NCBI RefSeq assembly: GCF_007559435.1
Contig: NZ_VMBP01000001.1
Coordinates: 993,406 to 1,057,405 of the forward strand
DNA length: 64,000 bases
Source of the DNA: Ancylobacter moscoviensis
Lineage (GTDB): Bacteria; Pseudomonadota; Alphaproteobacteria; Rhizobiales; Xanthobacteraceae
Direction of reading: 5' to 3'
The notes below the pieces were generated by a model that saw only the letters and a program-made list of their open reading frames with translations, ran no database searches and was not told the origin of the DNA. Each line of letters opens with the position of its first letter. The first letter of the stretch is position 1. Shown here piece by piece: positions 31,351 to 47,077 of the stretch. The translations under genes were made by a program, and so were the position numbers.

Positions 31351-31402
31351 GCGTCCCATCGGCGGTGACAAGATGGTCGGCTTATTACACGTACTCCGCG
31401 TT

Positions 31403-31416
31403 TATTGAAGTCAATA
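31403..31416. promoter_or_regulatory. perfect inverted repeat upstream of cysG
   Basis: TATTGA-AG-TCAATA, 6-bp arms, in the AT-richer 88-bp gap before cysG. It resembles a dimeric regulator site, but the spacing does not match the FixK/FNR consensus TTGAT-N4-ATCAA seen before ccoN. Confidence 0.35.
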
Positions 31417-31438
31417 CCGGATATCAGGTGGAAATATG

Positions 31439-31936
31439 TCAGTGGCTCTTTTCCGACAGCCTGTCGGTCCAGGCCAGCACGATGCCGGAGATGACGAAGA
31501 CGATGTGGATGATGACCAGCCAGGTCAGCTCCTTCTCGTCCACCCCGCGGTCGAGATTCATGAACGCCTTGAGCAGGGCGATGGCGGAGATGGCGACGAT
31601 GGAGGCCAGCAGCTTCTGCTTGAGGCCGGAGAAGTCGACCTTGGTCATCCATTCCGGCCAGTCGGCATGGCCCTCGGCGTCGATCTTGGAGACGAAGTTC
31701 TCGTAGCCGGAGAAGATGACGATGATGACGAGGCTGCCGGTGAAGGTGAGGTCGACCAGCGCGAGGATGCCGAGGATGGTGTCGCTCTCGTCGAAGGCGC
31801 TGGCGTGGCTGACGAAGTGCCACAGCTCGATGCCGAACTTGTACAGCAGCACCATCAGCGCGATGACGAGGCCGAGATAGAACGGCGCCATCAGCCAGCG
31901 GCTGAGAAAGATGAAGCGTTCGATGAACTTTTCCAT
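31439..31936 (-). CDS. UPF0114 (YqhA-like) inner-membrane protein
   Basis: 165-residue membrane protein of the TIGR00645/UPF0114 family with three to four helices; the family start pattern MEKFIERFIFLSRWLMAPFY is clear, with YENFVSKID and VDFSGLKQKLLASIVAISAI further on. Function unknown. ATG 31936 was chosen over the 14-codon longer reading because relatives begin exactly there and an AGAGGAG stretch lies upstream. Same strand as cysG but separated by 88 bp. Confidence 0.9.
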   Translation of the reverse strand: MEKFIERFIFLSRWLMAPFYLGLVIALMVLLYKFGIELWHFVSHASAFDESDTILGILALVDLTFTGSLVIIVIFSGYENFVSKIDAEGHADWPEWMTKVDFSGLKQKLLASIVAISAIALLKAFMNLDRGVDEKELTWLVIIHIVFVISGIVLAWTDRLSEKSH

Positions 31937-32030
31937 GCGCCGGGACGGCTCCTCTCGCTGATGCGAGATGGGTGCCATGGCGTGGGGGCGGTGGGCAAGA
32001 GGGAAGAGGGAAGAGGGGCAACCCGCGCGC

Positions 32031-32136
32031 CGTCATGCCCGGCCTTGGGCCGGGCATTCACGACTTGGCTGCCGCAGGTCGGAAAAGTCGGAAAAGAAGG
32101 AAGACGTGGATGGCCGGGACAAGCCCGGCCATGACG
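32031..32136. repeat. paired-palindrome intergenic repeat, copy 4
   Basis: Hairpins 32031-32062 and 32106-32136, with the same core CCCGGCC...GGCCGGG and TGGATGGCCGGGACAAG. The spacer holds a short direct repeat (CGGAAAAG twice). It lies between msrA and the UPF0114 gene, both on the minus strand. Confidence 0.88.
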
Positions 32137-32162
32137 TCGTGTTTGTCAGGCGGCGGGAGACG

Positions 32163-32816
32163 TTACGCCGCCACGCCCGTGCCGATGGGGCAGGAGACGC
32201 CGGTGCCGCCGAGGCCGCAATAGCCGTTCGGGTTCTTGGCGAGGTACTGCTGGTGGTAGTCCTCGGCGAAGTAGAAGGTCGGCGCGTCGACGATCTCGGT
32301 GGTGATCGCCGGGAAGCCCTTGGCCTTCAGCACGGCCTCATAGGCGGCCTTGCTGGCCTCGGCGGCGGTGCGCTGGGCGGGCGAGGTCGGGTAGATGCCG
32401 GAGCGATAGGTCGTGCCGACATCGTTGCCCTGCCGCATGCCCTGCGTCGGGTCGTGGCTTTCCCAGAACAGCTTCAGCAGTTGCTCGTAGGAGACCTTGG
32501 CGGGGTCGTAGACCACCAGCACCGCTTCGGCATGGCCGGTGAGGCCGGTGCAGGTCTCCTCATAGGTCGGGTTCGGCGTGATGCCGTTGATGTAGCCGAC
32601 GGCCGTGACCCAGACGCCGGGCGTCTGCCAGAACTTGCGCTCCGCGCCCCAGAAGCAGCCGAGCCCGAAGATCGCGGTCCCGAAGCCCTGCGGATAGGGG
32701 CCCTTGAGCGGGTTCTTCGAGAGGAAGTGGCGTTCGGCGGTGGGCAGCGCGGTGGGACGGCCGGGCAGGGCCTGCTCCGGCGTGGGCAGGTCGAGACTCT
32801 TCTTGAAGAAGAACAT
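32163..32816 (-). CDS. msrA: peptide-methionine (S)-S-oxide reductase
   Basis: Repairs oxidised methionine in proteins. 217 residues with catalytic Cys54 in GLGCFWGAE, then [23 protein letters not shown] and the C-terminal resolving cysteines in [14 protein letters not shown] 32816 (MFFFKKSL) has GAGGG nine bases upstream and matches related N-termini; a reading from 32855 adds 13 unlikely residues. No signal peptide, so cytoplasmic. It lies a little upstream of the oxidase genes on the opposite strand. Confidence 0.95.
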
Positions 32817-32931
32817 GGGGAACATCCCTCGTTTGGTTGACCCCAATGTAGGCATTGCGGGCCGGTCTTTCGAGGGGCGCGCCCGTTCACGCCGTCGCGT
32901 TCGGGCCGGTCAGGCTGCTGCCCGCCGCCAA

Positions 32932-33231
32932 TTACACCGCCCTGGGGCGGCCGATGAGCATGAGCAGCAGGCCGAGCACGCCCGCCACCACGAAGAGAGG
33001 GGCGCCGAGCACCGGCACGACGAGCGTTTCCCAGACACCCGCCGACACCCGCGTCTCCACGAAGGACTGGAAGCGCGTCAGCGAGTCCGGGCTGGTGGCG
33101 AGCCAGGTGACGCCGAGCGGCGTGGTGACGATCTCCGAGGAGGCGATGGAGCGCACCCCGTCCAGCACCAGCGCGACGAAGGCGCCGGCGAGAATCCAAA
33201 GACCCACGAAGCGGAAGAGGAAACGGATCAT
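32932..33231 (-). CDS. small two-helix membrane protein, unknown function
   Basis: 99 residues: helix 6-24, a polar loop with TTPLGVTW and a Phe/Arg-rich part, and helix 72-94. I recognise similar small alphaproteobacterial hypothetical proteins but no assigned role. ATG 33231 begins MIRFLFRFVGLW; a longer frame up to 33576 overlaps the FixK box region and is rejected. It is divergent from ccoN across the 292-bp gap that contains the FixK box, so it may also feel oxygen control. Purely positional inference. Confidence 0.68.
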   Translation of the reverse strand: MIRFLFRFVGLWILAGAFVALVLDGVRSIASSEIVTTPLGVTWLATSPDSLTRFQSFVETRVSAGVWETLVVPVLGAPLFVVAGVLGLLLMLIGRPRAV

Positions 33232-33427
33232 GCGCCGGCCTTGTCCCCGGGGCGCCGGAACACGGCGCCACTGTCCCCTCTTAGACGCCATCGCCGAGGC
33301 GCCGCAAGGCCGTATCCGGTCCGCGCGCCCTCCGGTGCCCGCCGCCGGGCGCGGAAGGCAGGATCGCCGGAGGCGTGCCGCCGCGTCATTCAGCCGCCGC
33401 CTCGCGTGTCCGTGAAGACCCTTAGCC

Positions 33428-33441
33428 TTGATTTGAATCAA
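33428..33441. promoter_or_regulatory. FixK/FNR-type box upstream of ccoN
   Basis: TTGAT-TTGA-ATCAA is a perfect match to the FNR/FixK palindrome TTGAT-N4-ATCAA and ends 82 bp before the ccoN start. It implies low-oxygen activation of the oxidase operon. It sits in the 292-bp gap 33232-33523, which is otherwise without recognised features. Confidence 0.92.
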
Positions 33442-33523
33442 GGTTGCGGCGCCCGCGCGGCGCAAAAGCTCGGCCCGAATATGGAGTCGTTCCAGATCAC
33501 CCGATCGGAACCTGGAGGGTCGC

Positions 33524-35248
33524 ATGAGCCAGCTAAACAGCTCCGACGGGCAAGAGGTCAGCGGTTCGGGCGCCACCGAGCCGGGCGTCGATCAGTCGGG
33601 CCGCAAGAAGATGACGTTCGGCGAGGGCGGCCTTGCCATCGTCTTCGCCATCCTCGCGCTGTCGTGCATCACGATCGCGGCCAAGGCGCAGGATACGGCT
33701 TATGCCTTCCACGCCTATCTCTCGGCCTTCGCCAGCATCGCGGCGGTGTTCGTCATCCTGAACCGCTATGTCGACCGTCCGGCGGCGCTGCCGCCGCTCG
33801 AGATCGACGGCAAGCCGAACTACAATTTCGGCCCGGTGAAGTTCGCCACCATCGCGGCGGTGTTCTGGGGCATCGCCGGCTTCACGATCGGCGTGATCAT
33901 CGCCTTCCAGCTCGCCTTCCCGGCGCTCAACTTCGACCTGCCCTGGACGGCGTTCGGCCGGCTGCGCCCGCTGCACACTTCGGCGGTGATCTTCGCCTTC
34001 GGCGGCAACGTGCTGATCGGCACCTCGTTCTACGTGGTGCAGCGCACCTCGCGCGCCCGGCTCGCCGGCTATCTGGCGCCATGGTTCGTGGTGCTGGGCT
34101 ACAACTTCTTCATCGTCATCGCCGGCACGGGCTATCTGCTGGGCATCACCCAGTCGAAGGAATATGCCGAGCCCGAATGGTACGCCGACCTGTGGCTGAC
34201 CGTCGTGTGGGTGGCCTACCTGCTCGTGTTCCTGGCTACCATCTGGCGCCGCCGGGAGCCGCACATCTACGTGGCGAACTGGTTCTACCTGGCGTTCATC
34301 GTCACCATCGCCATGCTGCACCTCGGCAACAACGCCAGCATCCCGGTGTCGGTGTTCTCGCCCAAGTCCTACATCGTCTGGTCGGGCGTGCAGGACGCGA
34401 TGGTGCAGTGGTGGTACGGCCACAACGCGGTGGGCTTCTTCCTCACCGCCGGCTTCCTCGCCATCATGTACTACTTCATCCCCAAGCGGGCGGACCGGCC
34501 GGTCTATTCCTACCGGCTCTCCATCGTCCACTTCTGGGCGCTGATCTTCATCTACATCTGGGCCGGTCCCCACCACCTGCACTACACGGCGCTGCCGGAC
34601 TGGGCGCAGACGCTGGGCATGACCTTCTCGATCATCCTGTGGATGCCGAGCTGGGGCGGCATGATCAACGGCCTGATGACGCTCTCCGGCGCCTGGGACA
34701 AGCTGCGCACCGACCCCGTGCTGCGCATGATGGTGGTGTCGGTCGCCTTCTACGGCATGTCGACCTTCGAAGGCCCGATGATGTCGGTGAAGGCGGTGAA
34801 CTCGCTGTCCCACTACACCGACTGGACCATCGGCCACGTGCATTCCGGTGCGCTGGGCTGGGTCGCCTACATCTCCTTCGGCGCCGTCTACTGCCTGGTG
34901 CCGTGGCTGTGGAACAAGAAGCAGCTCTACTCGCTCAAGCTGGTGAACTGGCACTTCTGGATCTCCACCATCGGCATCGTCTTCTACATCTCGGCGATGT
35001 GGGTGGCGGGCATCCTGCAGGGCCTGATGTGGCGGGCCTACACCTCGCTCGGTTTCCTCGAATACTCCTTCATCGAGACCGTCGAGGCGATGCACCCCTT
35101 CTACATCATCCGCGCGGTGGGCGGCGTGCTGTTCCTGATCGGCGCCCTGCTGATGGCCTTCAACATCTACATGACCATCCGCGAGCCTGAGACGGCTGAG
35201 GCCGATACCGGCGTGCGGGCCAATCCTTCCCTCGTGCCGGCTGAGTGA
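33524..35248 (+). CDS. ccoN: cbb3-type cytochrome c oxidase subunit I
   Basis: Catalytic subunit with heme b and the heme b3-CuB centre; reduces oxygen to water with high affinity. 574 residues, some 12 or more membrane helices; [15 protein letters not shown] holds a heme ligand His, [17 protein letters not shown] the CuB His and [15 protein letters not shown] the paired His. The N-terminus is a little longer and more polar than in many relatives (35 residues before helix one). ATG 33524 follows GGAGGG. First gene of ccoNOQP, with a FixK box 82 bp upstream. Confidence 0.98.
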
Positions 35249-35259
35249 GGACCAACACC

Positions 35260-36015
35260 ATGGCTGAGGCAGCCGCACCCAAGAAGTCGATCTGGGCCAA
35301 GCACGCCTTCCTCGAGAAGAACTCGATCTGGCTGCTGATCGGCATCCTGATCGTGGTCGCGATCGGCGGCCTCGTCGAGATCGTGCCGCTCTTCTACCTG
35401 AAGAGCACCATCGAGAAGGTCTCCGGCGTGCGTCCCTGGACGCCGCTGGAGCTGGCCGGGCGCAACATCTACATCCGCGAGGGCTGCTACAACTGCCACT
35501 CGCAGATGATCCGCCCGCTCCGCGACGAGGTCGAGCGCTACGGCCACTACTCGCTGGCGGCCGAGAGCATGTACGACCGGCCGTTCCAGTGGGGCTCCAA
35601 GCGCACCGGGCCGGATCTCGCCCGCGTCGGCAACAAATATTCCGACGAGTGGCAGCGCCAGCATCTCGCCGATCCGCGCTCGGTGGTGCCGGGCTCGATC
35701 ATGCCCGGCTATCCTTTCCTGGCGCAGACCCGGCTGAAGGCCGACCACATCGGCGAGGATCTCAAGGTCAACGCCGTGCTCGGCGTGCCCTACACCGAGG
35801 AGATGATCGCCGGCGCGCTCACCGACCTACGCCTGCAGGCGACGCCCGACGGCGACGTGGCCGAATTGCAGAAGCGCTATCCGGGCGCGCAGGTACGCGA
35901 CTTCGACGGCAATCCGCGGGAGCTGACCGAGGCCGACGCCCTGATCGCCTATCTGCAGGCGCTCGGCACGATGGTCGACTTCAAGCTCTACGACGACAAG
36001 GCAAACATCCGCTGA
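35260..36015 (+). CDS. ccoO: cbb3-type oxidase subunit II (membrane mono-heme cytochrome c)
   Basis: 251 residues: one N-terminal membrane helix (22-42) and a periplasmic cytochrome c domain with heme motif C76-Y-N-C79-H80, followed by [14 protein letters not shown] and the distal Met region [10 protein letters not shown]. Passes electrons from CcoP to CcoN. ATG 35260 ([10 protein letters not shown]) was preferred to an upstream frame that overlaps the ccoN stop. Eleven bases after ccoN, ten before ccoQ. Confidence 0.97.
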
Positions 36016-36025
36016 GGAGGCCGGG

Positions 36026-36181
36026 ATGAACGAGACCTATCGCGCCCTCGCCGAGTTCGCCCAGACCTGGGGGCTTCTGTACTTCGTCGGCATCTTCCTC
36101 TGCGTCGTCGCCTACGCGCTGTCTCCCAGGCGCAAGAAGCAGTTCGAGGAAGCCGCCCGCATGCCTTTGCGCGAGGACTGA
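36026..36181 (+). CDS. ccoQ: cbb3-type oxidase subunit IV (CcoQ)
   Basis: Short 51-residue protein with one membrane helix (about 14-32, LLYFVGIFLCVVAYAL), followed by PRRKKQFEEAARMPL, the standard CcoQ pattern. It stabilises the oxidase complex. A strong GAGGAGG ribosome site precedes the ATG. Located exactly between ccoO and ccoP (2-bp gap to ccoP). Confidence 0.95.
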   Translation: MNETYRALAEFAQTWGLLYFVGIFLCVVAYALSPRRKKQFEEAARMPLRED

Positions 36182-36183
36182 TC

Positions 36184-37068
36184 ATGGCCGACATTCACAA
36201 GAACGAGGTGGACGCGGTCAGCGGCGTCTCGACGACCGGCCACGAGTGGGACGGCATTCGCGAGCTGAACAACCCGCTGCCGCGCTGGTGGCTCTGGACC
36301 TTCTACGCCTGCATCGTCTGGGCGGTCCTGTACTGGATCGCCTATCCGGCTTGGCCGCTGGTGAGCAGCTACACCTACGGCGTGCTCGGCTGGAAGTCGC
36401 GCGACGCGGTGCAGGTGCAGCTTGCCGACCTGCGCGCCCAGCGCGCGGTGTTCGCCGACAAGCTGGCGGCGGCCTCGCTGACGGAGATCGAGAGCAATCC
36501 CGAGCTGCTGTCCTTCGCCCGCGCCCAGGGCCGCGCCGCCTTCGGCGACAACTGCGCGCCCTGCCACGGCTCGGGCGCGGCCGGCTCGCCGGGCTATCCG
36601 AACCTGAACGACGACGACTGGTTGTGGGGCGGCTCGCTGGAGCAGATCCAGCAGACCATCCTGCACGGCATCCGCTCGACCGATCCGGACGCGCATGTCG
36701 GCGACATGATGGCCTTCGGGCGCGACGGCATCCTCCCGCGGCCGGAGGTCGTGGCGGTGGCCGACTATGTCCGCTCGCTCTCGAACCTGCCGGTGCCGCA
36801 GGGCGTGACGCCGGACCTCGCCAAGGGCAAGGAGGTCTTCGACGCCAACTGCGCCGCCTGCCACGGGCCGGACGGCAAGGGGAACCCGGAGCTCGGCGCC
36901 CCCAACCTGACGGACGGCATCTGGCTCTACGGTTCGGGCCGCGACAACGTGATCGCGTCCATCACCAACGGTCGCGCCGGCATCATGCCGGCCTGGGCCG
37001 GACGCCTCGACCCGACGACGGTCAAGGCGCTCACCGTCTACGTACATTCGCTCGGGGGCGGCAGGTAG
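36184..37068 (+). CDS. ccoP: cbb3-type oxidase subunit III (membrane di-heme cytochrome c)
   Basis: 294 residues. N-terminal hydrophobic part (about 36-67) with NPLPRWW before the helix, then two periplasmic cytochrome c domains with heme motifs C124-A-P-C127-H128 and C223-A-A-C226-H227. Accepts electrons from soluble or membrane cytochrome c and passes them to CcoO. Last gene of ccoNOQP; a strong hairpin plus T-run follows. Confidence 0.97.
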   Translation: MADIHKNEVDAVSGVSTTGHEWDGIRELNNPLPRWWLWTFYACIVWAVLYWIAYPAWPLVSSYTYGVLGWKSRDAVQVQLADLRAQRAVFADKLAAASLTEIESNPELLSFARAQGRAAFGDNCAPCHGSGAAGSPGYPNLNDDDWLWGGSLEQIQQTILHGIRSTDPDAHVGDMMAFGRDGILPRPEVVAVADYVRSLSNLPVPQGVTPDLAKGKEVFDANCAACHGPDGKGNPELGAPNLTDGIWLYGSGRDNVIASITNGRAGIMPAWAGRLDPTTVKALTVYVHSLGGGR

Positions 37069-37091
37069 CGGGTGCGCGGGGCGGTTGAGGC

Positions 37092-37137
37092 TATGCGGCG
37101 GGGCGTCCCAGCGACGTCCCGCCGCATAAGCATTTTT
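37092..37137 (+). terminator. rho-independent terminator after ccoP
   Basis: TATGCGGCGGG (37092-37102) pairs with CCCGCCGCATA (37118-37128); GCGTC and GACGT extend the stem to about 16 bp with one G-U pair and a small loop. A run of five T follows at 37133-37137. It separates ccoNOQP from ccoG. Confidence 0.82.
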
Positions 37138-37227
37138 CCGCCCGGCAAGCCCCGGATGAACGCTTCCGGCCGCCGGGTTTAGAAAACCTACAGGCAGGCG
37201 TCGGCAGGCGAGACGTCGGGGACGGAC

Positions 37228-38697
37228 ATGAACGTGGCGACCAAGGTGCAGAAGCTCGAAGCCGACGGGGGCGTCGACGACGCCCCGCTCTACGAAGCCC
37301 GGCGCAAGATCTACCCGATCGCCGTGCACGGCACGTTCCGGCGCATCAAGTGGGCGCTGCTCGTCATCACGCTGGGCATCTACTACCTGCTGCCCTTCGT
37401 GCGCTGGGACCGCGGGCCGAACGCGCCGTCGCAGGCTGTGCTCGTCGACCTCGCCAACGGCCGGTTCTACTTCTTCTTCATCGAGATCTGGCCGCAGGAA
37501 ATCTACTACGTCACCGGCCTGCTCATCCTCGCCGCGCTGGTCCTGTTCCTGATGAACGCGGTCGCCGGGCGCCTGTGGTGTGGCTATCTCTGCCCGCAGA
37601 CCGTGTGGACGGACCTCTTCCAGGCGATTGAGCGCATGGTCGAGGGCGATCCGCGCGAGCGCCGCGAGAAGCAGAAGAACGCCTCGAAGGCGCAGCGGGC
37701 GTTCGAGGCCGCCTCCAAGCACTTCCTCTGGCTGATGGTGGCGTGGTGGACCGGCGGCGCCTGGGTGCTCTACTTCGCCGACGCGCCCACCCTGGTCTGG
37801 CAGCTCTTCACCGGCACCGCGCCGCTGGTCGCCTATGCGTGGATCGGCATCCTCACCTTCACCACCTATGTGCTCGCCGGCCACATGCGCGAGCAGGTGT
37901 GCACCTATATGTGCCCGTGGCCGCGCATCCAGGCCGCGCTGACCGACGAATACGCCTTCAACGTCACCTATCGCTACGACCGGGGCGAGCCGCGCAACTC
38001 CTTCAAGAAGGCCGAGGCGCTTAAGCTGCAGGGCCTGCCCGCCGGCGACTGCGTGGATTGCCGCCAGTGTGTCGCCGCCTGCCCGACCGGGGTCGATATC
38101 CGGCTCGGCAGCCAGCTCGACTGCATCCAGTGCGGCCTGTGCATCGACGCCTGCGACACGGTGATGAAGAAGGTCGGCCGCCCGGCCGGCCTGATCGCCT
38201 ACGACACCGAGATGAACGTCCAGCGCCGGCAGAAGGGCCTGCCGCCGGTGCGCAAGCTGTTCCGCGCCCGCACCGTGCTCTACACCGCGCTGATCGCCGT
38301 GGTCGGCGGCATCATGGTGGCGGCGCTGGCGACGCGCGGCTCGGAAGGCGTGTCCGTGATCCACGACCGCAACCCGCTCTTCGTCCAGCTTTCCGACGGC
38401 TCGATCCGCAACGCCTACACGCTGCGCATCGTCAACAAGCAGCCGATGCCGCGCCGCTTCGCCATCTCGGTCGAGGGCGTGCCGGAGGCCCGGCTGGAGA
38501 TTGCCGGCGGCATCGCCGAGACCGAGAATGGCCAGCCGGTGGTCGAGGTCGGCCCCGACCAGACCTACGAGCTGCGCGCCCTCGTCTCCACCCACGCCAG
38601 GCTGCCGGCCAACGCGTCGCTCGACGTCACCTTCCACATCGCCGATGTGGCCGGCGGCGAGACCAGCTCGGCTCCCGACCATTTCAAGGGCCCCTGA
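37228..38697 (+). CDS. ccoG: cbb3 oxidase assembly ferredoxin-like protein CcoG (FixG/RdxA)
   Basis: 489-residue membrane protein with about five helices and two 4Fe-4S motifs near residues 275-310 (CVDCRQCVAACP and CIQCGLCIDACD), plus the conserved WCGYLCPQTVW and CTYMCPWPR blocks. CcoG reduces Cu(II) to Cu(I) for oxidase maturation in characterised relatives. The C-terminal 120 residues form the Ig-like FixG domain. First gene of the assembly block ccoGHIS; about 90 bp after the ccoP terminator with no FixK box visible in front. Confidence 0.96.
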   Translation: MNVATKVQKLEADGGVDDAPLYEARRKIYPIAVHGTFRRIKWALLVITLGIYYLLPFVRWDRGPNAPSQAVLVDLANGRFYFFFIEIWPQEIYYVTGLLILAALVLFLMNAVAGRLWCGYLCPQTVWTDLFQAIERMVEGDPRERREKQKNASKAQRAFEAASKHFLWLMVAWWTGGAWVLYFADAPTLVWQLFTGTAPLVAYAWIGILTFTTYVLAGHMREQVCTYMCPWPRIQAALTDEYAFNVTYRYDRGEPRNSFKKAEALKLQGLPAGDCVDCRQCVAACPTGVDIRLGSQLDCIQCGLCIDACDTVMKKVGRPAGLIAYDTEMNVQRRQKGLPPVRKLFRARTVLYTALIAVVGGIMVAALATRGSEGVSVIHDRNPLFVQLSDGSIRNAYTLRIVNKQPMPRRFAISVEGVPEARLEIAGGIAETENGQPVVEVGPDQTYELRALVSTHARLPANASLDVTFHIADVAGGETSSAPDHFKGP

Positions 38698-38718
38698 GGC
38701 CCCTCCGGAGGAAGACCC

Positions 38719-39213
38719 ATGGCATCGCGCGCGACTTCCCCCGATGGCAGCGGACGGCCTCTCACGGGCCGTACCGTGCTGATCTTCTTCATCGCCTTCT
38801 TCGGCGTGGTGTTCGGCGCCAACTTCCTGCTGGTGCGCGCCGCCGTGACCAGCTTCGGCGGGGTGGAAACCGAGAGCGCCTATAAGGCCGGTCTCGCCTT
38901 CCGGCAGGAAAGCGAGGCCGCGGCCGCGCAGGACGCCCGCAACTGGAAGGTCGAGGCGCATGTCGAGCCGGGCCGGCTCGACGTCGCCGCACGCGACGCG
39001 CAGGGGCGCCCGCTCGCCGATGTCGCGCTCACCGCCGTCCTCCAACACCCGACCGATCGGCGGCTCGACGTGACGCTCGATCCGGTGCCGGTGAGCGCCG
39101 GCCTGTGGCGGGCGAGCGACGAGGTGACGGCGGGCCAGTGGGAACTGGTGATCGAGTTCAGCCGCGACGGCGAGCGCCTGTTCCGCTCCACCAACCGCGT
39201 CATCGTCCGCTAG
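38719..39213 (+). CDS. ccoH: cbb3 oxidase assembly protein CcoH (FixH)
   Basis: 164 residues: one N-terminal helix (about 19-39) with FFGVVFGANFLLVRAAVTSF and the family block ESAYKAGLAFRQE, followed by a periplasmic beta-rich domain. Needed for oxidase maturation and partner of CcoG/CcoI. Strong GGAGG ribosome site. 21 bp after ccoG, 11 bp before ccoI. Confidence 0.95.
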   Translation: MASRATSPDGSGRPLTGRTVLIFFIAFFGVVFGANFLLVRAAVTSFGGVETESAYKAGLAFRQESEAAAAQDARNWKVEAHVEPGRLDVAARDAQGRPLADVALTAVLQHPTDRRLDVTLDPVPVSAGLWRASDEVTAGQWELVIEFSRDGERLFRSTNRVIVR

Positions 39214-39224
39214 GAACGCGCGAG

Positions 39225-41573
39225 ATGGGCGCGCAGGTCATCTCCTTCCCCGCCGCCGGGCGATCGGTTCCGTCAGGCGGAGCCGTGCCGCAGGCGGCGC
39301 CCGGGCCGGACGACGCCAGGGATTCCGCCCCGGATTACTCGCTGTTCCTGCGCCATGATCCGGGCGGACAGGCGGAAATGGCCTTCGCCGTCGAGGGCAT
39401 CGACTGCGCCGCCTGCATCGACGAGATCGAGGATGCCGCCGAGGCGCTGCCCGGCGTCGCGCGGGCGCGGCTGAACTACACGACGCACCGCCTGACCGTC
39501 GGCTGGGACGCCGATGCCGAACCGCGCCCCGACGTGGTGCTGCAGGCGCTGGCGAAGACCGGCTACCGCGCCTATCCCTTCGAGGCCGACCGGCTCGAGG
39601 AGATCGAGAACCGGACCTCGCGCCACCTGCTGCGCTGCCTCGCCGTGGCCGGCTTCGCCATGATGAACATCATGCTGCTGTCGGTGTCGGTGTGGTCGGG
39701 CAACGTCACCGACATCACGCCGGAGACGCGCGACCTCTTCCACTGGCTCTCGGCGCTGATCGCGCTGCCGGCCGCCGCCTATGCCGGCCAGCCCTTCTTT
39801 CAGAGCGCCCTGCGGGCGCTGAGATCGCGCTCGCTCAACATGGACGTGCCGATCTCGCTCGGCGTGCTGCTGGCGCTCGGCGTGTCGGTGTTCGAGACGC
39901 TGCATCACGGCGAGCACGCCTATTTCGACTCGGCGGTGATGCTGCTCTTCTTCCTGCTCACCGGCCGCTATCTCGACCACGCCATGCGCCGCAAGACGCG
40001 GGCGGAGGCCGGCAATCTCGCCGCGTTGAAGGCGATGACCGCTAATCGCGTCGAGCCGGACGGGCGGTTGGTCACCGTGCCCGCCGCCGCCGTGAAGCCC
40101 GGCGACGAGGTGATGCTGCGCGCTGGCGAACGCGCGCCGGTCGACGGCGTGGTGATCTCCGGCACCGCCTCGGTCGACGACAGCCTGGTGACCGGCGAGA
40201 CGCTGCCGCGTGCGGTGGCCGCCGGCGAGACCGTGCACGCCGGCAGCCTGATCCATGACGGCGTGCTGCGCCTGCGGACCACGGCGGTGGGCGAGGACAC
40301 CTTCCTCGACGAGATCGAGCGGCTGCTCGACAAGGCCTCGACGGCGCGCGGTCGCTACATCCGCCTTGCCGACCGCGCGGCGCGGCTCTACGCGCCGATG
40401 GTGCACACCACCGCGCTGCTGTCGCTCGTCGGCTGGCTGCTCGTCGGCGCCTCGGTGCATCAGGCGGTGCTCATCGCCGTGGCGGTGCTCATCATCACCT
40501 GCCCCTGTGCGCTGGCGCTGGCCGTGCCGGCGGTGCAGGTGGTGGCCGCCGGCACGCTGATGCGCAACGGCGTGCTGATCAATTCCGGTGACACCTTCGA
40601 GCGGCTGGCCGAGATCGACACCGTCGCCTTCGACAAGACCGGCACGCTCACCCTTCCCGAGCCGCGTCTGGCGGATGAAGCCGCGGTGCCCCCGGCGCTG
40701 CTGGCCGCTGCCGCCCGGCTCGCGCTCGCCAGCACCCATCCGCTGGCGCGGGCGATCGCCGCCGCCCATCCCGGCGCCGTGCCGCCGGAGGATGCCCGCG
40801 AGGTGTCCGGGGCGGGTGTCGAGGCGCAGATCGACGGCGTGGCGGCCCGGCTGGGCAGTCCCTCCTTCTGCGGCTGCGAGAATCTTGCCGCCGCCGCGGC
40901 GGCCGAGGCGCCCGACGCCTCCTTCGTGGCCGTGCGGCTGGGCGATCGATGCGCGGTGCTGAAGGTGCGGCAGGCGCTGCGGCCGGACGCGCGGGCGGTG
41001 ATCGACGAGCTGCGGCGCGCCGGCAAGCAGGTCGTGCTGCTCTCGGGCGACCGCCGCGCGGCGGTAGCGCCGGTGGCAGCCGCGCTCGGCATCGCCGACT
41101 GGTGGGCCGAGGCGCGTCCCGGCGACAAGATCGCGGTGCTGGAAAGCCTCGCCGCCAAGCGCCGGCGCGTGCTGATGGTCGGTGACGGCATCAACGACGC
41201 GCCCTCGCTCGCCGCCGCCCATGTCTCGCTGTCGCCGATCACCGCAGCGGACGTGACCCGCGCCCATGCCGATGCGGTGTTCCTCGGCGAGAAGCTGGGC
41301 CCGGTCGCCACCGCGCTCCACGTAGCCGCCAAGGCGCGCCACCTGATGCGGCAGAACCTGTTGATCGCCGTGGTCTACAATCTCATCGCCGTGCCGCTGG
41401 CCATCGCCGGCTATGTGACGCCGCTGGTCGCGGCCCTCGCCATGTCCGGCTCGTCTGTTATCGTCACGGTCAACGCGCTGCGGGCGCGCAGCGGCGCGAC
41501 GTCCGCCGGCGCACGCGCCGCGTCCGCCGCCGCCGTCAGCAGCGCCCCGCTCGGGGCTGGGGAGGTGGCATGA
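39225..41573 (+). CDS. ccoI: copper-exporting P-type ATPase CcoI (FixI)
   Basis: P1B-type ATPase that supplies Cu for the CuB centre via the periplasm. 782 residues: HMA domain with C61-A-A-C64, eight helices, actuator TGE motif in DDSLVTGETLP, membrane copper motif TCPCALALAVP, phosphorylation DKTGTL, and the hinge GDGINDAPSLA. The DPGGQAEM and GIDCAACI lines are typical of FixI. ATG 39225 follows AGGAA; longer readings overlap ccoH. The C-terminal Ala-rich tail ends 4 bp into ccoS. Confidence 0.97.
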   Translation: MGAQVISFPAAGRSVPSGGAVPQAAPGPDDARDSAPDYSLFLRHDPGGQAEMAFAVEGIDCAACIDEIEDAAEALPGVARARLNYTTHRLTVGWDADAEPRPDVVLQALAKTGYRAYPFEADRLEEIENRTSRHLLRCLAVAGFAMMNIMLLSVSVWSGNVTDITPETRDLFHWLSALIALPAAAYAGQPFFQSALRALRSRSLNMDVPISLGVLLALGVSVFETLHHGEHAYFDSAVMLLFFLLTGRYLDHAMRRKTRAEAGNLAALKAMTANRVEPDGRLVTVPAAAVKPGDEVMLRAGERAPVDGVVISGTASVDDSLVTGETLPRAVAAGETVHAGSLIHDGVLRLRTTAVGEDTFLDEIERLLDKASTARGRYIRLADRAARLYAPMVHTTALLSLVGWLLVGASVHQAVLIAVAVLIITCPCALALAVPAVQVVAAGTLMRNGVLINSGDTFERLAEIDTVAFDKTGTLTLPEPRLADEAAVPPALLAAAARLALASTHPLARAIAAAHPGAVPPEDAREVSGAGVEAQIDGVAARLGSPSFCGCENLAAAAAAEAPDASFVAVRLGDRCAVLKVRQALRPDARAVIDELRRAGKQVVLLSGDRRAAVAPVAAALGIADWWAEARPGDKIAVLESLAAKRRRVLMVGDGINDAPSLAAAHVSLSPITAADVTRAHADAVFLGEKLGPVATALHVAAKARHLMRQNLLIAVVYNLIAVPLAIAGYVTPLVAALAMSGSSVIVTVNALRARSGATSAGARAASAAAVSSAPLGAGEVA

Positions 41574-41761
41574 GCGTGCTTCTCTATCTCGTGCCGGCGG
41601 CGCTGAGCCTCGGCTTCCTCGGCCTCGCCGCCTTCCTGTGGTCGCTGCGCGCCGGCCAGTATGACGATCTGGAAGGCGCCGCCGTCCGCGTGCTTGCCGA
41701 CGACGATCTGCGCGAGGACGATGCCTCCGGGTCCCCGCGCGGCAGAGGCGCGCGGGGATGA
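41570..41761 (+). CDS. ccoS: cbb3 oxidase assembly protein CcoS
   Basis: 63 residues: one membrane helix (about 4-26) followed by SLRAGQYDDLEGAAVRVL, the CcoS signature. Required for cofactor insertion into CcoN in relatives. It overlaps ccoI (ATGA, 41570-41573) and the next gene (41758-41761), so the three are translationally coupled. Confidence 0.95.
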   Translation: MSVLLYLVPAALSLGFLGLAAFLWSLRAGQYDDLEGAAVRVLADDDLREDDASGSPRGRGARG

Positions 41762-42921
41762 GCGGGGCCGACCTCCTCGCCGTCGAGAGCGAGGCCGCGC
41801 GGGCCGGGCGGCTCGGCTGCGCCTGCCCGGAAGATGCGCCGCGCGCGCTGCGCCGCTCGCTCGGTTCCGGCCGCCTCGCCGCCGGCTTCGCGCTGGTGGT
41901 GCTGGCGCAGGCGCTGACGCTCGGGGCGCTGCCGCTGGCCGGCGCCATGCTGGCGCCGCTGGAAAGCGCCGGTTCCCTCCCGCTCGCTTCCCTGCCGCTC
42001 GCCGCCTTCCTGCTCGGCGCGGCGCTCGCCAGCCTGCCGGCGAGTTTCCTGCTCGACACTTTCGGCCGTCGCGCCGGCTTCGCGCTCGGGGCGAGCCTCG
42101 GCGTCGCCGGCGGGCTGCTCGCGGCCTATGCGATGATGCTCGCGGCCTTCCCGATGCTGGTGCTCGGGGCGCTCTGGCTCGGTGCCGCGCAGGGCTTCGG
42201 CATGTTCTACCGCCACGCGGCGGCCTTCGGCGCGGGGAGCGATGGGCGGGGCGCTGCCGTGGCGCGGCTCATCGGCGCCGGTGCGCTGGCCGGCCTCATC
42301 GGCCCGCTGCTGGCCGGGACGGCGGAGGAGCTGTTCCTGCCCTACACCTTCGCCGGCACGCTGGTGCTGGCGGCCCTCGCCCAGCTCGGCGCGCTGGCCT
42401 TCGCGGTGGCGTTGCCGGAAGCGCGCTTCTCCCATGCCGAGCTGACCGTCGAGGCGATGCAGGCCGCGCCGGTTTCCACGCCGCTGGCCTGGCGGGCTCT
42501 GGTCCTGCCGACCCTGCTCGGCGCGCTCGCCTGGGGCGCCATGACCAGCGCCATGGCCGGCGCGCCCCTGTCGCTGGCCGGCTGCGGGGTCGGCGTGCCG
42601 CTGATCTCCGGCGTCGTCGCCTGGCACGTGGTGGCGATGTACGCCCCGGCGCTGGCTGGCGGTGCCCTGGCGCGCAGGATCGGCGCGACGCCGCTGGCGG
42701 CCGGCGCGCTGCTCCTGTGCGTCGGCGCGGCGGTCGTGGCGGCACAGGCTAGCGAGGCGGGCCTGATCGCGGCCGCCTTCCTCGCGGTGGGCGCCGGCTG
42801 GTCGCTGGCCACTCTCGGCGCGACGCTGATGCTGCATGCCGCCGGCACGCCCTCGCGCCTCCAGCTCGCCGCGCATGACGGCCTGCTGCTGACGGCGGCG
42901 CTCGTCGGGACCTTCGTCTGA
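41758..42921 (+). CDS. ccoA: CcoA-like MFS copper importer for cbb3 oxidase
   Basis: 387-residue major facilitator protein with about 12 helices. Helix 7/8 region carries M262-TSA-M266 and H290-VVA-M294: the MxxxM and HxxxM pair, 28 residues apart, that in the characterised copper importer CcoA of Rhodobacter capsulatus binds copper. It is coupled by a 4-bp overlap to ccoS at the end of the assembly operon, where copper import makes sense. A Cys-x-Cys (C21, C23) near the N-terminus is extra. Function is inferred from motif and context. Confidence 0.82.
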   Translation: MSGADLLAVESEAARAGRLGCACPEDAPRALRRSLGSGRLAAGFALVVLAQALTLGALPLAGAMLAPLESAGSLPLASLPLAAFLLGAALASLPASFLLDTFGRRAGFALGASLGVAGGLLAAYAMMLAAFPMLVLGALWLGAAQGFGMFYRHAAAFGAGSDGRGAAVARLIGAGALAGLIGPLLAGTAEELFLPYTFAGTLVLAALAQLGALAFAVALPEARFSHAELTVEAMQAAPVSTPLAWRALVLPTLLGALAWGAMTSAMAGAPLSLAGCGVGVPLISGVVAWHVVAMYAPALAGGALARRIGATPLAAGALLLCVGAAVVAAQASEAGLIAAAFLAVGAGWSLATLGATLMLHAAGTPSRLQLAAHDGLLLTAALVGTFV

Positions 42922-43011
42922 CGCGCCCGCCCGCTTCCTCCTGAACGCGCCGATTCCCGGCATGTCCGCGCGCGCCGGCTCGCTTGCTTGACCGGCCGCC
43001 GCATTTATGTA

Positions 43012-43025
43012 AGTGATCGTTCACT
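43012..43025. promoter_or_regulatory. probable TetR operator before the acyltransferase operon
   Basis: AGTGA-TCGT-TCACT, with outer GT/AC bases extending the symmetry to 43009-43028, lies 27 bp before the acyltransferase start. Such palindromes are typical of TetR-family sites, and the TetR gene is the second gene of this unit. Confidence 0.6.
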
Positions 43026-43052
43026 GACAAAAACGAATCGGGAGGATCGGCG

Positions 43053-46000
43053 ATGTTCACGCGGCTCATGACGGCCCGGCGTTTCGCTCCGCTGTTCTGG
43101 TGCCAGTTCTTCGCCGCGTTCAACGACAACTTCGTGAAGAACGCGATGGCGCTGCTGATCCTCTATGGCATCGCCCATGTGAATGGCGGTGCGCTGGTGA
43201 CGCTGGCGGGTGGGGTGTTCATCCTGCCCTTCTTCCTGTTTTCGAGCCTCGGGGGCCAGCTCGCCGACCGTTACGACAAGTCGCGGATCGCCCGGCGGGT
43301 GAAGTTCGCCGAGATCTGGATCGTGCTGGTCGCCAGCGCCGGCTTCGTGATGCAGTCGATCCCCGTCCTGTTCGTCGGTCTGTTCCTGATGGGCACGCTC
43401 AGCGCGCTGTTCGGGCCGGTGAAGTACGGCATCCTGCCGGATCACCTCGCCGAGGACGAGCTCGTCGCCGGCAACGCGCTGATCGAGACCGCCACCTTCG
43501 CCGCCATCCTCGGCGGCACGGTCGGCGGCGCGCTCGCCATCACCCATACCGGCGACTGGGCGGTCGCCGGCTTCACCTTCGTGCTGGCGGTGATCGCCTG
43601 GCTGTCGGCCCGCGCCATCCCGCGCACCCTGCCGGGCGACCCGAATCTGAAGATCGACCGCAACATCTGGCGCAGCACGATGACGCTGCTGGCCGAGCTC
43701 AGGTCCGAACCGCCGATCTGGCGCGGCGCGCTGATCGTCTCCTGGTTCTGGCTCGTCGGCGCCGTCGTGCTGTCGCTGCTGCCGACGCTGGTGAAGGAGA
43801 GTGTCGGCGGGCTGGAAAGCGTGGTGACGCTGTTCCTCGTGCTCTTCACCATCGGCGTCGCCATCGGCTCGACACTCGCCGCCCGGCTGTCGGAAGGGCG
43901 CATCATGCTCGCCATCGTGCCGGCTGCCGGCTTGCTGATGGGCGTCTTCGCCTTCTACGTCGCAGGGCTGATGGGCTCGCTGACGCCGGGCGCCGCGCCG
44001 GTCGGCTGGTACGAATTCCTCACCTCGGGGCCGGGCATCCACGCCGCCATCGGGCTCATCGGCCTCGCCGCGTCCGGCGGCGCCTTCGTGGTCCCGACCT
44101 TCGCCTATATCCAGGCCGAGGCCGGCGAGGACCGCCGTGCCCGGGTGATCGCCGGCAACAACGTGCTCAACGCCGCTTTCATGGTGGCAGGCGCGGTGGT
44201 GGTGGCGGGCCTGCAGATCGCCGGCCTCGGCGCCCCCGCGCTGATCGCCATCATCGGCGGCGCCAGCCTCGTCGTCGCGGTGATGGTGGGGCGCGCCTTC
44301 CAGGGGCAGGTGCTGCGCGACCTCATCAAGCTGGTGTTCCGGGTGCTGTTCCGCGTCGAGGTGACGGGGGCCGAGCATCTCAAGGCCGCCGGCCCCGGCT
44401 CGGTGATCGCCATCAACCATGTGAGCTTCCTCGACGCGCCGCTGATCATGGCGCTGCTCGACAACGATCCCGTCTTCGCGGTCGATCGCGGCATCGCCGA
44501 GCGCTGGTGGGTGAAGCCTTTCCTCAAGCTGGTGCGGGCCTTTCCGCTTGACCCGACCAAGCCGCTGGCGACGCGCGACCTCATCCGCCTCGTCCAGCAG
44601 GGCGAGCAGCTGGTCATCTTCCCGGAAGGGCGGATCACCGTCACCGGCTCGATCATGAAGATCTATGACGGCTCGGCCCTCGTCGCCGACAAGGCGGATG
44701 CATCCGTTGTACCGGTGCGCATCGAGGGGCTGGAGCAGACCTATTTCTCGCGGCTGGACAGTCACCAGACCCGCAAGCGGCTGTTCCCCAAGGTGCGAGT
44801 CACCATCCTCCCGCCGCGCAAGCTCAAGGTCGATCCCGAGCTGTTCGGCCGCAAGCGCCGGCGCATGGCCGGCGCGGCGCTCTACGACGTGATGAGCGAC
44901 CTCGTCTTCGAGACCAGCCACACCCGCATGAGCGTCTATCAGGCGGTGGAGGAGGCGGCGGTGCGCCTCGGCAAGGGGCGCATCGTGGTCGAGGACCCGC
45001 TCGGCACGGTGCTCACCTATCGCAAGCTGCTGCTCGGCGCGAAGATCCTCGGCGCCAAGCTGGCGGCGCAGACCCAGCCGGGCGAGAAGGTCGGCGTGCT
45101 GCTGCCCAACGCCGCCGGCCTCGCCGTGGTGCTCATGGCCCTGGCCCGCCATGGCCGCGTGCCGGTGATGCTGAACTACACCGCCGGCGCCACCAATCTC
45201 GTCGCCGCCTGCACCGCGGCCGAGGTGAAGCTCGTCGTCGCCTCGCGCGCCTTCATCGAGAAGGCGCGGCTCGAAGCGGACGTCGCCGAGCTGGAGAAGC
45301 ATGTCCGCGTGCTGATGAGCGAGGAGATCCGGGCCAGCGTCACCACCGCCGACAAGCTCGCGGCCATGCTGCCCTCGCGCTCGCCCAGGCCCGCCGATCC
45401 CGACAGCCCGGCCTTCATCCTCTTCACCTCGGGCTCGGAGGGGTCGCCGAAGGGCGTCGTGCTCTCCCACCGCAACGTGCTGACCAACGTCGCGCAGGTG
45501 GCGGCGCGGATCGACTTCTCGCCCGCCGACATCATGTTCAACGTGCTGCCGGTGTTCCATTCCTTCGGGCTCACCGGCGGGCTGATGCTGCCGCTGGTCT
45601 CGGGGCTGAAGTGCTACCTCTACCCTTCGCCGCTGCACTACCGGATCATCCCGGAGCTGGTCTACGCCACCAACGCCACCGCCATCGTCGGCACCGACAC
45701 CTTCCTCATGGGCTATGCCCGCACCGCGAACCCCTATGACTTCCGCTCGTTGCGCTTCGTTGTGGCGGGGGCGGAGCCGGTCAAGGCCGAGACGCGGCGC
45801 GTCTGGATGGAAAAGTTCGGCCACCGCATCCTCGAAGGCTACGGCGTCACCGAATGCTCGCCCGTGCTGGCGGTGAACACGCCGATGTTCAACCGCGTCG
45901 GCACGGTGGGCCGGCTGCTGCCGGGCATCAACCACCATCTGGAGGCCATGCCCGGCATCGAGGATGGCGGCCGGCTGCAGGTGCGCGGGCCGAACGTGAT

Positions 46001-46466
46001 GCTCGGCTATCTGCGCGCCGAGGCGCCCGGCGTGATCGAGCCGCCGGAACATGGCTGGTACGACACCGGCGACATCGTCGCCATTGATGAGGAAGGCTTC
46101 GTCGCCATTCGCGGGCGGGTGAAGCGCTTCGCCAAGATCGCCGGCGAGATGATCTCGCTTGCCGCCGTCGACGCCATGGTGGCGGCGCTCCGTCCCGATG
46201 CCGAGCATGTGGCGGTCGCGGTGCCGGACGCCCGGCGCGGTGAGCGCATCATCCTGATGACCACCGCCCCGGATCTCACCCGCGCGGCCTTGCAGGCGCA
46301 TGGCCGCGAGCGCGGTGTGAGCGAGCTGATGATCCCCGCCGAGATCCTGCCCATGGACGAACTGCCGCTGCTCGGCAGCGGCAAGGTGGACTTTACCAAG
46401 GCCCGCGTCATCGCGCTGGAGACCATCGCCGCGCGCGGCGCCAGGGCGGCGGGAGAAAACGTGTGA
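43053..46466 (+). CDS. Aas-like fused MFS / acyltransferase / acyl-ACP synthetase
   Basis: Large 1137-residue protein with three modules: an MFS lysophospholipid transporter-like part (1-410, NDNFVKNAMALLILYG near the start), a PlsC-type acyltransferase (about 430-630; H456-x4-D461 and FPEGR at 523-527), and an AMP-binding acyl-ACP/CoA synthetase (about 640-1137; TSGSEGSPKG near 792-801, GYGVTECSPV). In E. coli the same activities are split between LplT and Aas, which re-acylate lysophosphatidylethanolamine. Here they form one chain. It overlaps the TetR gene by 4 bp and has a palindromic operator upstream. Confidence 0.92.
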   Translation: MFTRLMTARRFAPLFWCQFFAAFNDNFVKNAMALLILYGIAHVNGGALVTLAGGVFILPFFLFSSLGGQLADRYDKSRIARRVKFAEIWIVLVASAGFVMQSIPVLFVGLFLMGTLSALFGPVKYGILPDHLAEDELVAGNALIETATFAAILGGTVGGALAITHTGDWAVAGFTFVLAVIAWLSARAIPRTLPGDPNLKIDRNIWRSTMTLLAELRSEPPIWRGALIVSWFWLVGAVVLSLLPTLVKESVGGLESVVTLFLVLFTIGVAIGSTLAARLSEGRIMLAIVPAAGLLMGVFAFYVAGLMGSLTPGAAPVGWYEFLTSGPGIHAAIGLIGLAASGGAFVVPTFAYIQAEAGEDRRARVIAGNNVLNAAFMVAGAVVVAGLQIAGLGAPALIAIIGGASLVVAVMVGRAFQGQVLRDLIKLVFRVLFRVEVTGAEHLKAAGPGSVIAINHVSFLDAPLIMALLDNDPVFAVDRGIAERWWVKPFLKLVRAFPLDPTKPLATRDLIRLVQQGEQLVIFPEGRITVTGSIMKIYDGSALVADKADASVVPVRIEGLEQTYFSRLDSHQTRKRLFPKVRVTILPPRKLKVDPELFGRKRRRMAGAALYDVMSDLVFETSHTRMSVYQAVEEAAVRLGKGRIVVEDPLGTVLTYRKLLLGAKILGAKLAAQTQPGEKVGVLLPNAAGLAVVLMALARHGRVPVMLNYTAGATNLVAACTAAEVKLVVASRAFIEKARLEADVAELEKHVRVLMSEEIRASVTTADKLAAMLPSRSPRPADPDSPAFILFTSGSEGSPKGVVLSHRNVLTNVAQVAARIDFSPADIMFNVLPVFHSFGLTGGLMLPLVSGLKCYLYPSPLHYRIIPELVYATNATAIVGTDTFLMGYARTANPYDFRSLRFVVAGAEPVKAETRRVWMEKFGHRILEGYGVTECSPVLAVNTPMFNRVGTVGRLLPGINHHLEAMPGIEDGGRLQVRGPNVMLGYLRAEAPGVIEPPEHGWYDTGDIVAIDEEGFVAIRGRVKRFAKIAGEMISLAAVDAMVAALRPDAEHVAVAVPDARRGERIILMTTAPDLTRAALQAHGRERGVSELMIPAEILPMDELPLLGSGKVDFTKARVIALETIAARGARAAGENV

Positions 46467-47077
46467 ACGCGCCGCGGCGCACCCCTTCGCGCGGCGGCGT
46501 CCGCCGGGGGCGCGACGGTGCCGACACCCGGGCCCGCATCGAGGCGGTGGCGCTGGAGCTGTTCGCCGGCAAGGGCGTGGCGGGCACCTCGGTGCGCGAC
46601 ATCGCCCAGGGGGTGGGGGTGAGCGAGGGGGCGCTCTACCGCCACTTCGCCTCCAAAGAGGAACTGGCGCGCGAATTGTTCCTTACCCGTTACGCGGCGC
46701 TGGCGGCGGAGATCTGCGCCATCGACGACCGCGAGCCGGACCTCGCCTCCCGGCTCGCCGCCGTGGTCGCGCGCGCCTGCGAGCTGTTCGACACCGAGCC
46801 GGCGCTGTTCGCCTATCTGCTCATCCACCAGCACGAGCATCTGGGCTCGGTGCCGGAGGGGCCGGAGGAAAACGTGGTGGAGGCGGTGGCGCGGCTGATG
46901 CGCCGGGCCGGCGTGCCGGCCGCCCGCGCCGGCCTCGTCGGCGCCATGGCGCTGGGTTGCGTCGTGCAGCCGGCGGTGTTCGCGCTCTATGGGCGGATCG
47001 AGGGGCCGCTGTCGGCGCAGGCCGACGCCATCGCCCGCGCCGTCACGGCCATCGTGGAAGGGGCGGGAAAACCCTGA
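46463..47077 (+). CDS. TetR/AcrR family regulator
   Basis: 204 residues, GTG start overlapping the stop of the acyltransferase gene (GTGTGA at 46461-46466). N-terminal HTH (about 20-66: RIEAVALELFAGKGVAGTSV, ...GVSEGALYRHF) and a helical ligand-binding domain (about 75-200). The coupling suggests it represses its own operon through the palindrome at 43012-43025, with a lipid or acyl-CoA as signal. The ligand is unknown. Confidence 0.92.
   Translation: MNAPRRTPSRGGVRRGRDGADTRARIEAVALELFAGKGVAGTSVRDIAQGVGVSEGALYRHFASKEELARELFLTRYAALAAEICAIDDREPDLASRLAAVVARACELFDTEPALFAYLLIHQHEHLGSVPEGPEENVVEAVARLMRRAGVPAARAGLVGAMALGCVVQPAVFALYGRIEGPLSAQADAIARAVTAIVEGAGKP

Follow-up and report, generated by a model that had tools for sequence, protein, structure and literature searches.

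A shortened CcoA-like (CalT) copper transporter gene conserved directly behind ccoGHIS in Ancylobacter moscoviensis and related bacteria

The cco cluster of Ancylobacter moscoviensis lies within a stretch of 64,000 nucleotides (hereafter the window) and consists of ccoNOQP, the assembly genes ccoGHIS and an MFS gene, here called calT, that follows ccoS (Table 1). Successive gaps between ccoG, ccoH, ccoI, ccoS and calT measure 21, 11, -4 and -4 bp, the ATG of calT lying within the stop of ccoS, and the ccoP-ccoG gap is 159 bp long and contains a strong terminator-like hairpin. From the overlaps and short gaps, ccoG-ccoH-ccoI-ccoS-calT is likely to form one transcription unit; given the hairpin, ccoNOQP may be coupled to it only in part. 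A single transcript bearing genes for copper import, reduction and export, as proposed in the initial annotation, is plausible for ccoGHIS-calT only. Ahead of ccoN sits a palindrome, TTGATTTGAATCAA, which we take to be of the FNR/FixK type. An acyl-ACP phospholipid acyltransferase gene (43053) begins 131 bp after calT, which therefore looks like the final gene of the cluster. Between the two, a second palindrome, AGTGATCGTTCACT (43012-43025), was found by eye; since a TetR-family gene (46463-47077, PF00440) overlaps the end of the acyltransferase gene, this palindrome may be the operator of that regulator.

Table 1. Coordinates of the cco cluster and of calT features, numbered from the first nucleotide of the window.
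Feature	Position	Strand	Basis or remark
Presumed FNR/FixK-type palindrome TTGATTTGAATCAA	33428..33441	.	upstream of ccoN; sole match to three patterns within 30001-47000
ccoN	33524..35248	+	NCBIfam TIGR00780
ccoO	35245..36015	+	TIGR00781
ccoQ (51 aa)	36026..36181	+	PF05545 FixQ
ccoP	36184..37068	+	TIGR00782
Terminator-like hairpin, ccoP/ccoG gap	37092..37128	+	16 bp stem, T-rich tail; consensus match only
ccoG (cupric reductase family)	37228..38697	+	TIGR02745
ccoH	38719..39213	+	PF05751 FixH; start codon chosen from ORF list
ccoI, Cu-exporting P1B ATPase	39225..41573	+	TIGR01511, PF00403; CxxC kept (CAAC 61-64)
ccoS	41570..41761	+	TIGR00847, PF03597; only FixS match of the genome
calT	41758..42921	+	387 aa; shortened copper transporter of the CcoA-like kind with 11 helices predicted; group '11B' (cco-linked)
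C21-x-C23 motif codons (RxGxLxCxC)	41818..41826	+	invariant in 45/45 aligned; absent from 85 distinct unlinked CalT/CcoA
MTSAM (MxxxM, residues 262-266, helix 7)	42541..42555	+	motif position and model
C276, equivalent of CcoA C247	42583..42585	+	45/45 aligned; same column as C247
HVVAM (HxxxM, residues 290-294, helix 8)	42625..42639	+	motif position and model

ORF coordinates and translation confirmed two observations of the initial annotation, namely an MFS gene overlapping ccoS by 4 bp and a motif pair 28 residues apart. MTSAM and HVVAM are the only MxxxM/HxxxM words in the protein, and the spacing runs from the first M of MTSAM to the H of HVVAM. The protein scores 41.8 bits with PF07690 (MFS_1), above the cut-off of 33.4, and Foldseek matched its MFS fold to MFS structures. 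No NCBIfam profile was found for it at E<=0.001, and a sequence search of solved structures returned GLUT3 matches only, all weak. A chance origin of the motif pair was ruled out: among the loci of 30 of the 38 PF07690 matches of this genome only calT has the exact spacing, which was met again in these loci only as calT itself, the neighbour in L225. In its own genome calT is the sole CalT match (E<=0.001).

The residues M, M, H and M are present at the motif columns in 32/32 cco-linked and 26/26 unlinked homologues, the best hits of order and family searches that were not keyed to the motif. A further 20 family CalT hits outside the linked group all have the motif pair and are all full length. 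Exceptions occur among the named loci of a species collection (the best 80 of 126): L144 has I for the second M of MxxxM, and in L157 and L160 the loop is 2 residues shorter; as these loci were retrieved by patterns including part of HxxxM, motif retention among them is biased. R. capsulatus CcoA is reported to need both the His of this motif pair and its first Met (PMC8406296).

AlphaFold2, run on the calT protein together with 44 other cco-linked sequences, gave a model with a mean pLDDT of 85.6 and a pTM of 0.86. Besides the window's protein, this alignment takes in 44 sequences from the 76 complete named loci; L144 and L160 are among those it omits. Eleven membrane helices can be counted, the last ending at residue 386 of 387; helix 7 (246-275) contains MTSAM, and HVVAM is part of helix 8 (280-308), which has a break at 296. 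Helix 12 is missing from the model, with about 40 residues fewer after HxxxM, and the median number of residues beyond that motif is 97 in cco-linked proteins versus 136 in other CalT and 141 in CcoA-type proteins. Residues 1-30 have very low model confidence and are probably disordered. The idea that a small gene further downstream supplies the missing helix was rejected, as no short hydrophobic ORF consistently follows calT in 23 representative loci scanned on the + strand by hydropathy only; single loci with such an ORF are L151, L155 and L156.

An IQ-TREE phylogeny of 84 rows separates CalT overall from 13 MFS proteins of the same genome (100/99), groups the 33 cco-linked rows as one clade (100/99) and places 11 CcoA-type rows in a separate clade (100/100). 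Other CalT plus CcoA form the sister group of the cco-linked clade (99/93), which stands on a branch of length 1.79; because this branch is long, rate effects may have influenced the exact branching. A warning of odd composition was given for several rows, among them that of the window. CcoA-type rows were picked not by name but by the C49, C247 and C367 spacing published for R. capsulatus CcoA (PMC8406296), which is present in 31/32 CcoA-type loci (31 distinct, L089 and L169 being one locus); their assignment to Rhodobacterales is presumed. Cysteines of the calT protein stand at positions 21, 23, 276 and 321, of which one occupies the C247 column, and equivalents of C49 and C367 are missing. 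A CcoA orthologue is thus ruled out by tree position and by these two missing cysteines.

The initial annotation had called the gene 'CcoA-like' and had named placement outside the CcoA clade as grounds for giving that up. The calT protein does fall outside the CcoA-type clade, which disposes of orthology and leaves membership of CalT standing: motif, sequence, fold and tree agree on the latter, whereas tree, cysteines and helix 12 speak against CcoA itself. On the strength of its sequence, the protein belongs to CalT, the CcoA-like copper transporters, and is not a CcoA orthologue. It shares with Rhodobacter CcoA (cluster 1) the copper motif pair and its spacing, the C247 equivalent and a presumed role in cbb3 copper supply. 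However, CcoA-type proteins form their own clade, are full length, possess C49 and C367 and lack the N-terminal CxC tail described below, and their loci have no ccoS within 1.5 kb flanks.

With the RfnT-like CalT (CalT-O, -R and -A) the protein has the motif and the MFS fold in common. Copper import in E. coli is shown for these three, full-length CalT from as many species, yet a ccoA mutant of Rhodobacter is not rescued by the RfnT-like CalT (PMC6362234), so that family membership does not by itself give a physiological role. The 26 unlinked CalT retrieved from the order are 30-36% identical to the calT protein but are full length and without the CxC tail. One genome of the window's genus (G248) has a second, full-length CalT (L251), in which a loop HH replaces the C247-equivalent Cys. 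Homologues were formerly annotated as riboflavin transporters, which would speak for another activity of the product: export by an MFS protein, or transport of a different substrate, for example the riboflavin of the older RfnT annotation. We consider this very improbable for calT, since those homologues did not transport riboflavin efficiently (PMC6362234), the copper motif is kept and no riboflavin gene occurs among the annotated genes of the cco cluster.

Gene order bears out the coupling to the cco assembly genes that the initial annotation had proposed. Among the named loci (best 80 of 126), ccoS lies directly upstream of calT in 77/79, the remaining 2 being contig-cut, and in 61 of these 77 the script-chosen start of calT overlaps ccoS by 4 bp; genera represented in this set include Ancylobacter, Xanthobacter, Azorhizobium, Aquabacter, Rhodoblastus, Methylocella, Chelatococcus and Microvirga. 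Close calT homologues were surveyed at two levels. An even draw of 150 genomes of the order yielded FixS/CcoS in 120, of which 4 (G000, G077, G095 and G120) have a close calT homologue (45% identity or more), with ccoS just upstream in all. At the family level FixS was found in 132/198 genomes and a linked CalT in 34 of these 132; in 34/34 it adjoins FixS on the same strand, with 18-117 bp between the matched stretches. Absence of linked CalT from the other 98 ccoS-bearing family genomes implies that cbb3 assembly has no general need of it.

Within the window's genus all 12 genomes, the window's own included, carry linked CalT, and the protein of G077 is identical to that of Ancylobacter polymorphus (L103). 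Five genomes of this genus (G077, G296, G310, G331 and G340) have two FixS/ccoS genes and one CalT hit, so that in these this CalT follows only one cco copy; the window's genome has one ccoS. None of 86 other CalT/CcoA-type loci has a ccoS match in its 1.5 kb flanks, and the linked subgroup is the only CalT, among the loci examined, that is physically tied to assembly genes. This bears on a further reading, in which calT would import copper for other cuproproteins and its cco linkage would be merely historical. We judge this to be quite unlikely: 37/153 family genomes with a CalT-like hit have no FixS match, but the subgroup itself has ccoS as its neighbour in each of the 34 family genomes where it occurs and in all 77 named loci (best 80 of 126) that are not contig-cut.

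The arrangement behind ccoGHIS is not new and is already in print for related bacteria. Rhizobiales CcoA-like proteins with both motifs and without helix 12, encoded right downstream of ccoNOQP and ccoGHIS, are described in PMC5829832, where a joint function with the assembly proteins is suggested. Twelve such sequences form cluster 11B in the tree of PMC6362234; its nearest neighbour there is cluster 11 rather than cluster 1, the home of the experimentally supported CcoA. The gene studied here agrees with cluster 11B in gene position, in MxxxM/HxxxM, in the missing helix 12 and in its kinship to CalT but not to cluster 1; its place directly behind ccoGHIS and the lack of helix 12 are matched by the published description, and nothing essential differs. 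The remark in the initial annotation that such importers are usually encoded apart from the cco genes thus holds for Rhodobacter CcoA and fails for this Rhizobiales group. We conclude that calT is a real and conserved gene of the CcoA-like (CalT) family, and that its arrangement has been published before. The available parts of the CalT/CcoA literature covered report no experimental test of the truncated cco-linked group.

The N-terminus of the linked proteins has a feature of its own. R15, G17, C21 and C23 are invariant across the aligned proteins, most neighbouring residues being variable, and CxC occurs in 86/87 distinct cco-linked proteins (the exception is L160), in 0/54 other CalT and in 0/31 distinct CcoA-type proteins. 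Dropped from the CalT set were L031, which duplicates the window, L165, which has an open end, and the contig-cut loci L152 and L161; the 108 linked loci that stayed encode these 87 proteins. A CxC flag in L251 was discarded, because its Cys belong to read-through sequence a long way ahead of the protein body. In typical MFS proteins the N- and the C-terminus are both on the inner side (PMC8406296), so that the two Cys would face the cytosol as a thiol pair immediately ahead of helix 1; by this analogy the tail is presumably located in the cytosol. The available main text of PMC5829832, PMC6362234 and PMC8406296 makes no mention of a CxC tail, and the cco-linked group is absent from what the review PMC7558416, in its available part, says of CalT. 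The N-terminal CxC therefore seems to be undescribed in print as a feature of the subgroup.

Changes in CcoI run alongside. Its N-terminal CxxC is lost in 10/71 loci with linked CalT, one of which (L130) keeps a single Cys, versus 3/79 without, a difference that gives Fisher p = 0.04, uncorrected and from counts that are not independent. One CxxC per CcoI is the rule with and without linked CalT, loss alone differing, and the transmembrane motif CPC is present in 150/150 loci; the N-terminus was unreadable in 9 CalT loci and in L324. On a FastTree phylogeny of CcoI the CxxC losses amount to 6 changes and CalT linkage to only 3, which makes the linked operons nearly one lineage, and a test on independent pairs had 1 usable pair, putting significance out of reach. 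The losses fit, weakly, a direct handover of copper from CalT to CcoI. Three loci of one family (L277, L278 and L291; family code f23) have a CcoI without the N-terminal CxxC and no linked CalT, which counts against handover; L291 comes from a genome (G022) in which one of the closest unlinked CalT is encoded on a different contig. In R. capsulatus the N-terminal sites of CcoI are important but not essential (PMC8475189).

Loss of CxxC, together with the missing helix 12, the near-universal CxC and the tight linkage to ccoI-ccoS, is also what one would expect if the product were no free transporter but an 11-helix copper-binding membrane partner, docked on CcoI/CcoS and passing copper to CcoI via CxC. 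We think this unlikely. The transport motif is kept, 61/71 linked operons, the window's included, retain the CcoI CxxC, the difference in CxxC loss has the limits just given, and no in-frame ccoS-calT fusion was found among the loci checked. Linked CalT goes with a scarcity of other CalT: among ccoS-bearing family genomes another CalT hit occurs in at most 11/34 with linked CalT, and in fewer if there are fragments among these hits, versus 82/98 without (p 6e-8; E-value hits, of which 20 were read, with kinship ignored). Neither this scarcity nor the CcoI losses are mentioned for cluster 11B in the available parts of the publications.

It is probable, in our view, that calT is a cco-linked, shortened CalT ('cluster 11B') that imports periplasmic copper near CcoG and CcoI for cbb3 assembly, and a copper-import role of the protein is in itself likely. 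Periplasmic copper would pass into the cytoplasm via a site made up of M262/M266 in helix 7 and H290/M294 in helix 8, would arrive near CcoG for reduction and near CcoI for re-export towards the CuB site of CcoN, and the means of copper supply would be made jointly with the assembly proteins. What the DNA itself shows is membership of the family, the motif, the order of the genes, the conserved linkage, the absent helix 12 and the CxC; transport, its direction, co-transcription and use for the cbb3 oxidase are what we infer. The route of copper to the CuB site of cbb3 oxidases is called unresolved in PMC5829832.

A more far-reaching version, which we regard as doubtful, makes the importer an integral part of the export machinery around CcoI: the CxC would receive the imported copper and take it straight on to CcoI, and the gap left by helix 12 would dock CcoS or CcoI. 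The CxC tail is the part most deserving follow-up, as its restriction to the subgroup turns handover from importer to CcoI into a concrete, testable idea. Were the built-in importer true, a soluble chaperone would be dispensable and so, in some lineages, would even the CxxC domain of CcoI itself.
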